Positions 35,693 through 55,697 of a DNA stretch of 64,000 nucleotides are shown one piece after another. Position 1 is the first letter of the stretch. Each line of letters starts with the position of its first letter. The position numbers were made by a program, and so were the translations under genes. The stretch is from Paenibacillus sp. OV219 (GTDB lineage: Bacteria > Bacillota > Bacilli > Paenibacillales > Paenibacillaceae). The stretch lies in contig NZ_FOCJ01000001.1 in NCBI RefSeq assembly GCF_900110075.1, positions 124,001-188,000 of the forward strand, read 5' to 3'. A model generated the notes under the pieces. The model was not told where the DNA came from, made no database searches, and saw only the letters and a program-made list of their open reading frames with translations.

Positions 35693-35921
35693 GGGTACTT
35701 CGTGTACCCCTCTTTGATTTATGTTCGCAGGTTGCTCACAAAAGAAGGGTACCTGGTACCCTACTTTTACTCAAACTCCCTGATTTCCTCCAATGTAGGG
35801 TACCTAATACCCTTCTTTGGCCCAACCTCCCTGATTTCCTCCAATGTAGGGTACCTAGTACCCTTCTTTGGCCCAACCTCCTTGATTTCCTCCAATGTAG
35901 GGTACCTAGTACCCTTCTTTG
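35693..35921. repeat. Tandem array 1, 51-bp period, hairpin-bearing
   Basis: Units begin at 35747, 35798, 35849 and 35900, each exactly 51 bp apart, with a diverged unit starting at 35693. Each unit opens with GGGTAC-CTA-GTACCC or a close form, a small hairpin, followed by TTCTTTGG and CCTGATTTCCTCCAATGTA. The last copy is partial. Because 51 is divisible by three, several frames stay open across it; I see no ribosome site and do not call a gene. Confidence 0.9.
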
Positions 35922-35976
35922 ACTCTGTTCGGTGAAATCTCGCTGATGTAGTGCTAGTGAGTATCCTTATTAGCGA

Positions 35977-36282
35977 GAAGTCCAGCAAACCAGCTACATT
36001 CGCTCAATCCGCCGGATCTCCGCCAATGAAGTCCAGCAAACCAGCTACATTCGCTCAATCCGCTGGTTTTCCGCCAATGAAGTCCAGTAAACCAGCTACA
36101 TTCGCTCAATCCGCTGGTTTTCCGCCAATGAAGTCCAGCAAACCAGCTACATTCGCTCAATCCGCCGGATTTCCGCCAATGAAGTCCAGCAAACCAGCTA
36201 CATTCGCTCACTCCGCCGGATTTCCGCCAATGAAGTCCAGCAAACCAACTACATTCGCTCAATCCGCTGGTTATCCACCAAT
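35977..36282. repeat. Tandem array 2, 51-bp period, six copies
   Basis: Units begin at 35977, 36028, 36079, 36130, 36181 and 36232. Each starts GAAGTCCAGCAAACCAGCTA and ends TTTCCGCCAAT, with few substitutions between copies. Its sequence is unrelated to array 1, 56 bp away, but the period is the same. Open frames exist on both strands with a 17-residue period and no convincing start. The remaining bases to 36440 hold a stray TTTCCGCCAAT at 36354 and no gene. Confidence 0.92.
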
Positions 36283-52193: not shown

Positions 52194-54413
52194 ATGAAAC
52201 GATTGAATAGTCCAAAAATGATTTCGATATTGCTATTTAGTGCGATATTGGCGGCAGGGTGCAGCTCGAATGATCCGAACATAGCCGGAAGTTCTAACAC
52301 AACCAACACGGCTGTAGCTGCTGACGCTGGTGTTGAGACGGCTTCAGCTTCCGCTTCGGCGGCGCAGCGGGCGGAATCGTCTGCTGCAGCAATTAAGTTG
52401 GCTAGCGAGGATGTGAGCAAGCTCGCAGGCTTTGACGAGAATGATGCGCTCACTGGCTGGAGCGCGGATAGCTCGACGGCAATTGCGTTTAGCGGCGCAA
52501 GTGCCAGTGTCAGCGGATCTGGGGCGAGCGCCGATCGCGGCGTCGTTACGATCAAGGAAGCGGGTACTTATGTCGTGAACGGTGCAGTATCGGCTGGGCA
52601 GCTAGTCGTGGAAGCGCCTGAGGATGCGGTTGTTCATCTTGTTTTGAACGGGACGCAGATTACGAATAACAATGGTCCTGCAATCTATGTGAAAGAAGCG
52701 GAGAAGACGATTGTGACGCTGCAGGATGGCACAGACAACCAGGTGGTTGATGGTGCCACGTACGTAGACACGTCGGAGGAAGCGCCTACTGCGACAATCT
52801 ACAGCAAAGGTGATCTGACATTTAACGGCAAGGGTAAGCTGAGTGTTCAAGGCAGCGCGAAAGACGGGATTACAAGCAAGGATGATTTGAAGATCATGAG
52901 CGGTACTTTTGAAGTGAAGTCGGCGGATGATGGTATTGTCGGCCGTGACTTGCTAGCTGTGAAGGATGGCTCGATGATTACTGTGGCTGCCGGCGGAGAT
53001 GGTATGAAGACTACGAATGACGCTGATGATAAAGACAAAGGCTATGTTGCAATAGCAGGCGGGACATTCAACATCAAGTCTGCAAAAGACAGCATACAGG
53101 CGGCTTCTTCCATTCTAATCGGCGAAGGTACATTTGAACTTGTAGCTGGCGGCGGCAGCGCGGCTTCCACAAAGGTGCATGAGGACGACCGGATGCGCGG
53201 TGGCTTCGGTCAGATGCAGTCGGGCAAGGATAAGGATGCGAAAGTGGCTACGGGTGTAAGTGTGAAAGCAAGTGCGGATTCGGGTGCAAATGTAAAATCA
53301 GACACGGATTCCGCAACAGCTGCTGCGGAAACGGAAGCTTCCGGTGCGAAGGCAATAAAGGCCGCAGTTAATGTTGCGATTGCCGGCGGCAGTTTCAAGA
53401 TTGACGCGGCGGATGATGCCGTTCACAGCAATGACAATGTTGTGCTAGCAGGCGGCGACTATCAAATTGCATCCGGGGATGATGGCTTGCATGCAGATGG
53501 CGTCACTTCGATTGCAGGCGGAACGGTGAACATCACCAAGAGCTATGAAGGAATTGAAGGCGCGGATATTACGATTTCTGGCGGCGATACTCATGTAACT
53601 GCAAGCGATGACGGCGTCAATGTGGGCGGCGGCAATGACAGCTCCGGCGGTGGCGGCGGAGATATGTTCAGCGCTACTGACGGCATGCTGACTATTAGCG
53701 GTGGTTACCTATATGTAGATGCGGCAGGCGATGGCCTAGATTCCAACGGCTCCGCTGTCATGACAGGCGGTACGGCAGTCGTGAACGGGCCGACGGAGAA
53801 CAATAATGCTCCGCTCGATTTTAACGGCAACTTCGTGCAATCAGGCGGCAAGCTCATTGCAGCGGGCAGTGCGGGCATGGCGCAAGCACCATCCGAGACA
53901 TCCTCGCAGCTTGCAGTCATGATGACATTCCCGAGTACGCTGGAAGCGGGCACGACTGTAACGCTTACCGATAGTGCGGGTGCAGTCATTGCCGTATTCC
54001 AGCCGTCGAAGACGTTCAGGAGCATCGTCATCTCTTCGCCTGAACTGAAGAGCGGCGAGTCGTACACGATTTCGACTGGCGGTACAGCAAGCGGTACACC
54101 GACTGATGGATTGTACGATAGCGCTTCGGTTAGCGCCAGCACCAAAGTCGTTACATTCAAGATGGGCGACAAAGTCACCTATGTGAATGAATCCGGTGTA
54201 ACAACAGCCAATTCGGGCGGCTTCGGCGGCGGTCCCGGAGGCGGCCGCGGCGGTCAAGGCGGACCAGATGGACAAGGCGGTCCCGGTGGACCGGACGGAC
54301 AAGGCGGTCCGGGTGGACCAGACAGTCAAGGCGGTCAAGGTGCGCCAGATGCGCCGCCTGAAGCATCAAGTGGCGGCACGAGTGATTCGACAGGCACGGA
54401 TTCGGCTGCCTGA
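52194..54413 (+). CDS. Cthe_2159-type carbohydrate-binding lipoprotein
   Basis: The lipobox is LAAGC near residue 23, followed by a long A/S/T-rich stretch. Residues about 120-600 hold many parallel-helix turns with phrases such as GGTFNIKSAKDSIQA, SADDGI and ASDDGVNVGGG, the calcium-binding beta-helix pattern of Cthe_2159, which binds acidic plant polysaccharide. A wall-like extension of G, P, Q and D repeats (GGPGGPDGQGG) ends the protein. It follows the DUF4956 gene by 16 bp. The substrate here is unknown. Confidence 0.87.
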   Translation: MKRLNSPKMISILLFSAILAAGCSSNDPNIAGSSNTTNTAVAADAGVETASASASAAQRAESSAAAIKLASEDVSKLAGFDENDALTGWSADSSTAIAFSGASASVSGSGASADRGVVTIKEAGTYVVNGAVSAGQLVVEAPEDAVVHLVLNGTQITNNNGPAIYVKEAEKTIVTLQDGTDNQVVDGATYVDTSEEAPTATIYSKGDLTFNGKGKLSVQGSAKDGITSKDDLKIMSGTFEVKSADDGIVGRDLLAVKDGSMITVAAGGDGMKTTNDADDKDKGYVAIAGGTFNIKSAKDSIQAASSILIGEGTFELVAGGGSAASTKVHEDDRMRGGFGQMQSGKDKDAKVATGVSVKASADSGANVKSDTDSATAAAETEASGAKAIKAAVNVAIAGGSFKIDAADDAVHSNDNVVLAGGDYQIASGDDGLHADGVTSIAGGTVNITKSYEGIEGADITISGGDTHVTASDDGVNVGGGNDSSGGGGGDMFSATDGMLTISGGYLYVDAAGDGLDSNGSAVMTGGTAVVNGPTENNNAPLDFNGNFVQSGGKLIAAGSAGMAQAPSETSSQLAVMMTFPSTLEAGTTVTLTDSAGAVIAVFQPSKTFRSIVISSPELKSGESYTISTGGTASGTPTDGLYDSASVSASTKVVTFKMGDKVTYVNESGVTTANSGGFGGGPGGGRGGQGGPDGQGGPGGPDGQGGPGGPDSQGGQGAPDAPPEASSGGTSDSTGTDSAA

Positions 54414-54523: not shown

Positions 54524-54948
54524 TGAGAGGATGTGTCCTCTCTCAGGTGCGAGAGCGGCGTGGGGGCCGGAAAAGCGGTAATCGCGTGATGAGAGAGGGA
54601 ATATCCTCTCTCGGGTCCGATGGCGGTAATGGCGGCGGTTAGCTAGCAACTGAGAGATCATATACGTTCTCTCGTGTGAGAAATCACGGGACAATCGTGC
54701 TGAGAGAACATATACGTGCTCTCGGAGTAAGAAAGGGTCTCGAAAGGTATTGAAAGACTGCCGAGAGAACACATATGTGCTCTCAGCAAAAAATAGCCGG
54801 AGAAAGTACGCTGAGAGCACAAATAGGTTCTCTCAGTGAGCAATACACACTGGAAACGAGGTTAGCGTGCAGCTGAGAGTCATGAAACATGACTTTCGAG
54901 TGGCGCAGCAGACGAAATCACGTGTGAGAGTCGTGAAACCCGACTCTC
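54524..54948. repeat. Array of eight hairpins sharing GAGAG/CTCTC ends
   Basis: Hairpins begin at 54525, 54591, 54652, 54702, 54763, 54813, 54875 and 54926; gaps are 66, 61, 50, 61, 50, 62 and 51. All end in GAGAG and CTCTC (one CTTTC), but inner stem bases change together: GAGAGGA/TCCTCTC, GAGAGAGG/CCTCTCTC, GAGAGTCATG/CATGACTTTC, GAGAGTCG/CGACTCTC. Most are preceded by AATCG or a CGTG-like stretch. The 747-bp gap between convergent genes otherwise holds no gene up to the terminator at 55103. Confidence 0.9.
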
Positions 54949-55102
54949 AGCCAATGAGGTTCGTTTAGCGTGCAGCTTAATCCGGAGGGCGGTGTTCCAA
55001 TCCAAGAGGGTATGCGGAGTTAAGTAGTCTGATGAACGAGCTGGCGCTCGAGGCTATAGAGGCGCATAAATCCACCTCGGGCAAGCCGTCCACTCCAAAT
55101 GC

Positions 55103-55138
55103 AAAAAAGCTTAGAGTCGCATTGACTCTAAGCTTTTT
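55103..55138. terminator. Bidirectional terminator
   Basis: AAAAAGCTTAGAGTC and GACTCTAAGCTTTTT with a short loop; it ends the nitroreductase transcript on the minus strand. Confidence 0.9.
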
Positions 55139-55159
55139 CGCATACTACGGGCATCATAA

Positions 55160-55663
55160 TTAAGGTAAATGAGTCATTTTGGAGGCAATCGGAGTTCTTG
55201 GTCTCGCGACCGGCTCTTCTGCGGGATATCCAACGCCAAGGATGCCGATTACGTCGTATCCTTCTTGAACGCTAAGGAGAGCACGATTGTGAGGTAGCGC
55301 GCCGAGTGAAGCCCAATACACGCCGGCGCCTGCTTCGTGGGCGCCCAGCAAGAAGTTCTGAACGAAACAGGATACAGCCATGACATTCTCGTCGCGCTCG
55401 AAAGGCGTTGCGGCAGGTTTGGACAGAACCGCAAGTAGGACCGGCGCATTGCCGAAGTTCGTCTTGTGGTTTAATTTCGCCCTCGTCTCCGGTCCGATCA
55501 AGAGAATTTCCCAAGGCTCGTTCATCCGGTGGTTAGGTGCGAAGCTTGCCGCTTCTAGCCAGGCGATTAAGTCCGCCTCGCGAATCGGATCCGGCTTGAA
55601 TGATTTAATTGTGCGGCGTGTTCGTATGGCTTCAATTATGCTCGTCGTATTTGTCATCGACAT
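55160..55663 (-). CDS. Nitroreductase family flavoprotein
   Basis: A protein of about 167 residues with FMN-binding phrases RTRRTIKSFKPD near 14-25, ASFAPNHRMNEPWE near 41-54, and GVGYPAEEP near the end. ATG 55663 is preferred behind GGAG; other ATG codons lie at 55678, 55672, 55669 and 55657. It resembles the compact YdjA group. Such enzymes reduce nitro compounds or quinone-like substrates with NAD(P)H; the true substrate is unknown. Confidence 0.88.
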   Translation of the reverse strand: MSMTNTTSIIEAIRTRRTIKSFKPDPIREADLIAWLEAASFAPNHRMNEPWEILLIGPETRAKLNHKTNFGNAPVLLAVLSKPAATPFERDENVMAVSCFVQNFLLGAHEAGAGVYWASLGALPHNRALLSVQEGYDVIGILGVGYPAEEPVARPRTPIASKMTHLP

Positions 55664-55697
55664 TTTCATCATCTCCATTCATCTCATTCGCTTCTTC

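Follow-up and report, generated by a model that had tools for sequence, protein, structure and literature searches.

The closest described systems are the REP and BIME-2 arrays of enterobacteria and Xanthomonas, in which spaced extragenic palindromes occur in clusters and in hundreds of copies; a topological role has been proposed for them, and in particular for the BIME-2 arrays of E. coli, which bind gyrase (PMC2817692, PMC6379681). In these enterobacterial arrays transposase history, RNA roles and gyrase binding are entangled. Among Gram-positive bacteria, the staphylococcal STAR elements have a period of about 50 nt, spacers that vary between lineages and positions that are stable within a species; they expand and contract, and their function is given as unknown (PMC3532100). 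Inverted repeats near gene ends in E. coli are mostly parts of terminators, according to a further study (PMC6060812). We found no paper on arrays of the kind described below in Paenibacillus among open-licence PMC papers, and the term Paenibacillus was counted 0 times in PMC3733652 and PMC2817692, both of which deal with REP families.

We analysed a 64-kb window of the genome of Paenibacillus sp. OV219 (G000). An array of eight palindromes was found at 54525–54948, in the gap between two convergent open reading frames. The features of the gap are as follows, in window coordinates.

52194..54413, plus strand: left convergent open reading frame, 739 aa
54420..54454, plus strand: intrinsic terminator of the left gene, 5′ of the array, seen as an inverted repeat, as a terminator-like site in the consensus scan, and again in the scan of gene ends beside arrays
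54525..54544: hairpin 1, GAGAGGATGTGTCCTCTCTC, type D, 20 nt
54591..54612: hairpin 2, GAGAGAGGGAATATCCTCTCTC, type D
54613..54651: long linker, 39 bp
54652..54673: hairpin 3, type A, 22 nt
54674..54701: short linker, 28 bp
54702..54723: hairpin 4, type A, 22 nt
54724..54762: long linker, 39 bp
54763..54784: hairpin 5, type A, 22 nt
54785..54812: short linker, 28 bp, contains an A-tract
54813..54834: hairpin 6, type A, 22 nt, same sequence in the sister genome G001
54835..54874: long linker, 40 bp
54875..54897: hairpin 7, 23 nt, differs from the motif by a single base (CTTTC)
54898..54925: short linker, 28 bp
54926..54948: hairpin 8, type B, 23 nt
55099..55143: inverted repeat between A- and T-runs, read as a bidirectional terminator; absent from the consensus terminator scan
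55160..55678, minus strand: right convergent open reading frame, 172 aa

The hairpins start at 54525, 54591, 54652, 54702, 54763, 54813, 54875 and 54926 (54924 for the last in a looser scan), giving start-to-start spacings of 66, 61, 50, 61, 50, 62 and 51. The alternation near 61 and 50 bp that the first-pass annotation had reported after the first hairpin was therefore borne out. That annotation had also described eight stems sharing GAGAG/CTCTC at the base, with inner pairs that change on both arms together. Eight hairpins are present and seven contain an exact GAGAG-N8..14-CTCTC (one of them readable in two registers), but the seventh is a near copy that ends in CTTTC; the inner pairs it named hold for hairpins 1, 2, 7 and 8, and in hairpins 3–6 either pair 6 or pair 7 is mismatched. 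The window contained eight matches to GAGAG-N8..14-CTCTC at seven places, compared with 0.29 ± 0.57 (maximum 2) in 100 shuffles, and 11 matches to a two-site pattern (GAGAG-N10..13-CTCTC-N27..41-GAGAG, in which some sites are counted more than once), compared with 0 in 100 shuffles. Random sequence thus gives no comparable number of sites, chance or composition is ruled out as the origin of the array, and the observation is confirmed: the window array is real.

A 706-base query from the gap gave 157 matches in G000 (6.1 Mb in 38 contigs). Most of the matches listed were hairpin units, and a cluster of at least two exact sites was present in 36 of the 37 G000 loci fetched for query matches. The two-site pattern was counted 607 times in G000, 742 in G001, 299 in G006, 495 in G019, 701 in G021, 28 in G010 and 13 in G016, and 0–2 times in each of the remaining 15 genomes of the genus. 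The search of the genome for groups with 50/61 spacing, proposed with the first description of the array, was thus positive, with hundreds in its own genome and in four relatives. Across the family, 85 of 344 genomes had a two-site match, and hundreds (299–742) were found in just five (G000, G001, G006, G019 and G021); the remaining 339 had 0–28, and a reversed control pattern gave 0–5. Twelve named Paenibacillus genomes had 0–2 each. A full-length AhpF of at least 88% identity was present in precisely those seven genomes whose pattern count exceeded two, and the other 15 genomes of the genus gave no full-length AhpF match, which suggests that the seven array genomes form one clade. Two adjacent ahpC-ahpF pairs were seen at L241, L242 and L245 (G010, G016 and G019) and at L243 (G006), where one ahpC is partial. 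The array class is well supported; its function we infer.

The spacing of sites was analysed in 78 loci from seven genomes, 38 of G000 and 40 of relatives, all picked for arrays. Transitions between successive spacings were short-long in 163 cases, long-short in 149, short-short in 23 and long-long in 2, so that 312 of 337 follow the 50/61 alternation; 10 of the 23 short-short transitions came from G010. The linker was mostly 28 or 39 bp irrespective of whether it joined 22- or 23-nt hairpins. Between two 22-nt hairpins (n = 135) it measured 28 bp in 58 cases, 29 in 18 and 39 in 42; between two 23-nt hairpins (n = 87), 28 bp in 47 and 39 in 33; and in mixed pairs (n = 31), 28 bp in 12 and 39 in 11. 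Hairpins assigned a length of 20–21 nt had other linker lengths (28–46 bp), a departure due partly to GAGAGAG being readable in two registers and partly to a different palindrome in G010. Units of 111–113 bp repeat in tandem inside arrays. Site spacings of 50 and 61 bp correspond to 5 and 6 helical turns at about 10.2 bp per turn.

To examine linker composition, we removed linkers more than 60% identical, which left 48 of 198 short and 64 of 142 long linkers (gap exactly 28 or 39 bp; G010 excluded). In this non-redundant set the short linkers were A/T-rich at positions 8–11 and 18–21 and the long linkers at 19–21 and 30–31, and weakly at 9–10; both were G/C-rich between these tracts. The Fourier amplitudes of short and long linkers were 0.133 and 0.085, compared with 99.8% null limits of 0.042 and 0.031 from 500 shuffles, and among linkers at most 45% identical (13 short, 23 long) they were 0.122 and 0.075, compared with 0.080 and 0.044 for the largest of 1000 shuffles. 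When the stems were masked and the A/T-rich centre of the palindrome was counted in, a period of 10.1–10.3 bp fitted best and the centre was in phase. Linkers alone fitted periods from 10 to 11 bp about equally and so do not fix the period; the figure of 10.1–10.3 bp therefore rests on the hairpin spacing. Background DNA of the same loci had a weak W periodicity near 10.15 bp, and 9.75 bp for AA/TT, both computed without a null.

Both A and T were present in the tract columns shown, with G and C in the minority, a mix more suggestive of selection for weak pairs than of simple descent. TpA accounted for 12 of 199 and 11 of 223 WW steps in the tracts, compared with 17.6% in the background, and for 275 of 1478 in the hairpin centres. 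The scarcity of TpA in the linker tracts indicates that these are true A-tracts. Predicted curvature was modestly raised, at 39.6 degrees compared with 31.6 for shuffled linkers and 31.5 for background, and 104 of 153 units were predicted to bend more than their own shuffles; both figures come from a wedge model.

The stems were then compared base by base. In the 22-nt class, bases 1–5 were almost invariant, pair 6 had in most cases A or C in the left arm and T or G in the right, with the arms independent, pairs 7 and 8 covaried, and pairs 9–11 did not. Among the 22-mers of G000, Watson-Crick pairs were found in 69 of 119 at pair 7 (39.7 ± 4.9 expected) and in 112 of 119 at pair 8 (89.8 ± 2.3 expected) in a permutation that ignores relatedness; the covariation at each pair held when stratified by the other, and the 22-mers of G001 behaved alike. 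The 23-mers of G000, G006 and G019 covaried when unstratified, and this was mostly lost after stratification; those of G001 showed no covariation in the permutation test. G-U combinations made up 1–10% at pairs 7 and 8. When 151 homologous hairpin pairs within arrays were compared at these two pairs, 23 one-arm changes made or broke pairing, 5 one-sided changes were between non-pairs, 3 two-sided changes were compensated and 3 were not. Changes in bases 1–5 of homologous hairpins were seen in 3 of 355 cells for 22-mers and 23 of 400 for 23-mers. Compensated changes thus occur at two stem pairs across subfamilies and one-arm changes dominate among close copies, which, together with the low rate of change in bases 1–5, indicates that the literal GAGAG/CTCTC is kept best and the inner symmetry loosely. 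The first-pass annotation had proposed selection on the palindromes and not on the linear sequence. Selected palindromes were borne out; the second part was not, since the outer five bases are the most conserved, the arms of pair 6 vary independently and one-arm changes outnumber compensated ones by 23 to 3. Covariation, which it had put forward as a check, was found within genomes at pairs 7 and 8 in the test that ignores relatedness, but among close copies compensated changes were far outnumbered.

The placement of the window array between the open reading frames at 52194–54413 (+) and 55160–55678 (−) is convergent, as had been noted, and hence it is no promoter. The right frame, putatively nitroreductase-like, has its closest named relative in Paenibacillus phyllosphaerae (78%); the glycine-rich C-terminal end of the left frame contains a tandem 27-bp repeat at 54249–54349. 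With open reading frames called mechanically, 86 arrays lay between convergent frames in 44 cases, codirectional in 39 and divergent in 3, whereas the background of intergenic gaps longer than 80 bp in the same loci was convergent in 84 of 382 and divergent in 93 of 382 (Fisher test: convergent enrichment, p = 2e-7; divergent depletion, p = 1e-6). A first pass over 38 G000 arrays alone had given 21 convergent and 2 divergent. In a strict scan, a terminator lay between gene end and array at just 42 of 127 gene ends, so that read-through is possible elsewhere. A terminator-like hairpin AAAAAGCTTAGAGTC..GACTCTAAGCTTTTT recurs in array loci (window 55011–55139, L032 5484–5610, L033 6748–6783 and L159 9016–9061), in L032 together with about 80 bp of upstream sequence. 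The window array itself does not match the terminator-part pattern described for gene-end inverted repeats in the E. coli study (PMC6060812).

In the sister genome G001 the same gap, in the same gene order, contains an array; identity over 305 bp is about 77%. Type-D copies are more numerous there than in G000, one site differs on both arms and a second on a single arm, and one of the linkers has 5 bp fewer; these differences point to weak constraint on single sites. This locus was the only G001 comparison made without prior knowledge of an array there. Flanks common to a G000 array locus were found in 5 of the 13 G001 loci compared, and homologous arrays were in place in four of six G000/G001 comparisons (the window, L048/L162, L033/L159 and, with a difference of about 0.9 kb in one flank, L046/L154); because both sets of loci were picked for arrays, these counts give no rate of conservation. 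At L048/L162 the spacings were 50/61/50 and 51/61/50, and 66 of 96 linker and 72 of 88 hairpin positions were identical. At L067/L165 the two genomes have different arrays, and at L051/L156 arrays border about 5.6 kb that are absent from the matching G001 gap. The region L051 5888–12130 contains two arrays and L156 9750–10477 a single one, as after recombination between arrays or insertion. Copy number at a shared site differed, 12 compared with 4.

Among deeper relatives, G019 has an array where G000 has none, and G010 is without one present in G000. The window locus had no array in G016 or in P. methanolicus; in the latter the gene order is the same and the gap is without an array of this kind, but it shows no exact boundary and so gives no clean empty site. 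With MITEs in mind, which are marked by terminal inverted repeats and a target duplication, a recurrent end of one subfamily, AGAGTGTCGATTCAA, was found (at most one mismatch) at 8 places in G000 and 0 in four relatives, with a target duplication suggested once only. As a candidate transposon end it was set aside, the adjoining sequence containing no transposase by inspection alone. A subfamily end, TAGAGAGTGTCGATTCAATCGGCC, starts directly after the left half of a type-A hairpin (L031 5820–6190, L033 6000–6060, L193 1480–1560), as though an array had been inserted into an existing one.

Tandem arrays of similar period occur more widely, two of them in the window.

35746..35923: 51-bp array around a GGGTACC..GGTACCC palindrome
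35977..36282: 51-bp tandem array with AT content at 5 cycles per unit (p = 0.003), without a clear palindrome

Tandem Repeats Finder periods peaked at 51 (45 rows), 52 (10 rows) and 111–113 (56 rows), where rows may overlap and most arrays lie in loci picked for arrays. In 75 named loci, fetched by a neighbouring gene rather than for arrays, 8 of the 25 rows with a period of at least 30 were 51 or 52, one of them inside an open frame. AT power at 5 cycles per unit (p ≤ 0.05) was seen in 33 of 60 arrays of period 50–52, namely 25 of 41 in this genus, 6 of 11 in other genera and 2 of 8 in the named loci (both Neobacillus), and in 13 of 30 arrays without a GAGAG core; 27 of the 60 had no such AT phase. 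The 52-bp arrays at L103 5346–5635 and 9451–9667, L107 9608–9787 and L123 10657–10937, whose period is not a multiple of three, occur in Neobacillus cucumis, Paenibacillus silagei and Fredinandcohnia onubensis. A sequence-blind search for long-stem hairpin arrays in the 75 named loci and the window returned one 51-bp array (L110) and missed the window array, and so is a poor detector. It is conceivable, if doubtful, that the chromosomes of this family contain a class of DNA scaffold whose dimensions come in whole helical turns (5 or 6 for each site with its linker; 51 or 50+61 bp), its sequence free except for the dyad and phased A-tracts. Such a scaffold would serve a putative protein at convergent gene ends for nucleosome-like wrapping or for docking, and in other genera different palindromes would take the place of the dyad.

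Linkers of set length but unlike sequence, A-tracts confined to a single face of the helix, and convergent placement together argue that DNA structure is the selected trait, and the arrays probably shape DNA rather than make an RNA. The reading we favour, with a probability of about 0.45, is a DNA-level array of the BIME/STAR kind, its dyad sites set on phased linkers, that probably manages topology at gene ends by being bound or wrapped. Dyad sites GAGAG-N10..13-CTCTC, joined by alternating 28/39-bp linkers with A-tracts in phase with the site centres, would be recognised by a protein or assembly; the literal GAGAG/CTCTC dyads point to such a putative reader. The DNA between dyads would bend or wrap in one direction, and the resulting nucleoprotein element may handle or insulate supercoiling where two transcription units converge. 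Copies within an array would expand by tandem duplication. Of the options first put forward, those at the DNA level are the best. Two candidate partners were rejected: no histone-fold protein (PF00808) was found in 5 genomes, and HU, with 2–3 copies in all 22 genomes of the genus, did not track the arrays.

Gyrase itself could be the partner, the arrays being a Gram-positive counterpart of BIME-2 in which gyrase is bound in trains. Positive supercoils meet at convergent gene ends, and the arrays are placed at gene ends. Gyrase is a general enzyme, yet among 344 genomes of the family the GAGAG arrays reach high density in 5. The 130-bp gyrase motif of E. coli has periodic GC/AT arms, is over-represented in BIME-2 and is read as wrapping phased AT, which makes gyrase a serious candidate even though we consider this explanation unlikely; the arm period of 10.75 bp given in that study (PMC6379681) differs from the 10.1–10.3 bp of the array spacing, a difference that linkers alone cannot discriminate. 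Also improbable is that the arrays are REP-like selfish DNA, whose hairpins a transposase would recognise in single-stranded form and copy, and whose position at gene ends reflects tolerance only. High copy number, internally mismatched hairpins, clustering at extragenic sites, related units spread over several loci, array positions that differ in deeper relatives and a subfamily end within the hairpin of another array all fit such copying, but it has no use for set linker length and phased A-tracts, and no clean target duplication was established (one case was suggested). In addition, no Y1 (IS200/RAYT) transposase was found in the seven array genomes, and one weak match in the 22 genomes of the genus, when this one family was searched. 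A RAYT/IS200 origin was rejected on this ground, and the recombination element considered in the first-pass annotation found no link to a recombinase or transposase within the one family tested (Y1_Tnp).

Neutral tandem repeats, whose copies multiply by slippage and whose palindromes are maintained through template switching (quasipalindrome correction), would account for the repetition of 111–113-bp units, for the copy numbers of 12 and 4 at a shared site and for the common one-arm changes. We think this improbable, because pair 6 keeps its mismatches beside the well-paired 7 and 8, and because 28/39 alternation and A-tract phase are present in linkers not recognisably alike. An RNA element, either a repeat RNA or 3′-UTR hairpins with a role in transcript stability or termination, would fit the position at gene ends, the covariation at pairs 7 and 8 and the possible read-through where no terminator precedes the array. 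It would also fit the folding: on both strands the predicted fold of the array is stronger than that of shuffles (z = −8.3 and −9.5), with single hairpins from −0.55 (first) to −4.63 (last). In the window, however, both flanking genes have a terminator before the array, and no T-run directly follows the hairpins on the plus strand. Rfam gave 0 matches in the window at gathering score, and a known RNA family was rejected on this ground; five matches in the array region were far below the cut-offs, three of them to miRNA models. Phased A-tracts are a DNA feature that a transcript would not need and speak against the structured RNA suggested earlier; we regard an RNA element as very improbable.

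The preferred reading, a bound or wrapped DNA array, can be set against the known systems point by point. The GAGAG arrays share with REP and BIME sequences imperfect palindromes of 20–40 bp, extragenic position, more than 100 copies and regular spacing in clusters. Compared with BIME-2/REP, the sites are nearly symmetric and so have no head-tail orientation in which the alternation of the asymmetric REP units would show; alternation is seen in linker length. A GTAG or CGTC tag at the hairpin end is absent, the flanks being mostly GCT...AGC on both sides, and the linker profiles showed no other conserved tetranucleotide. The array genomes are also unlike those of BIME-2/REP in being without a Y1/RAYT transposase, and the linkers in having set length, unlike sequence and phased A-tracts. 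With CRISPR arrays they have in common palindromic repeats and spacers of set length; that reading is ruled out by two alternating spacer lengths, variable repeats, spacers that recur with the unit and many loci.

The 50–52-bp arrays of other genera and Neobacillus likewise have one core per 51–52 bp, and 8 of 19 have 5 AT cycles per unit; unlike the GAGAG arrays they have other cores and a single spacing. The STAR elements are similar as Gram-positive intergenic arrays with a period of about 50 nt, a short fixed motif, spacer turnover and positional stability (PMC3532100). Their motif is a 14-bp direct repeat of other sequence, and the available sections of that report make no mention of a counterpart to the 28/39 alternation or the A-tract phase (PMC3532100). 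The STAR motif T(G/A/T)TGTTG(G/T)GGCCC(C/A) had 3 matches at 2 mismatches in the window, compared with 2.05 expected, and none in the array. In this Gram-positive family, a helical-phase signal is combined with set linker length and unlike linkers in five genomes without a Y1 transposase, and shared sites together with gained or lost ones make selection of the arrays as DNA structure directly testable. The array is a variant of the BIME/STAR kind, and its helical-phase property makes the function testable.
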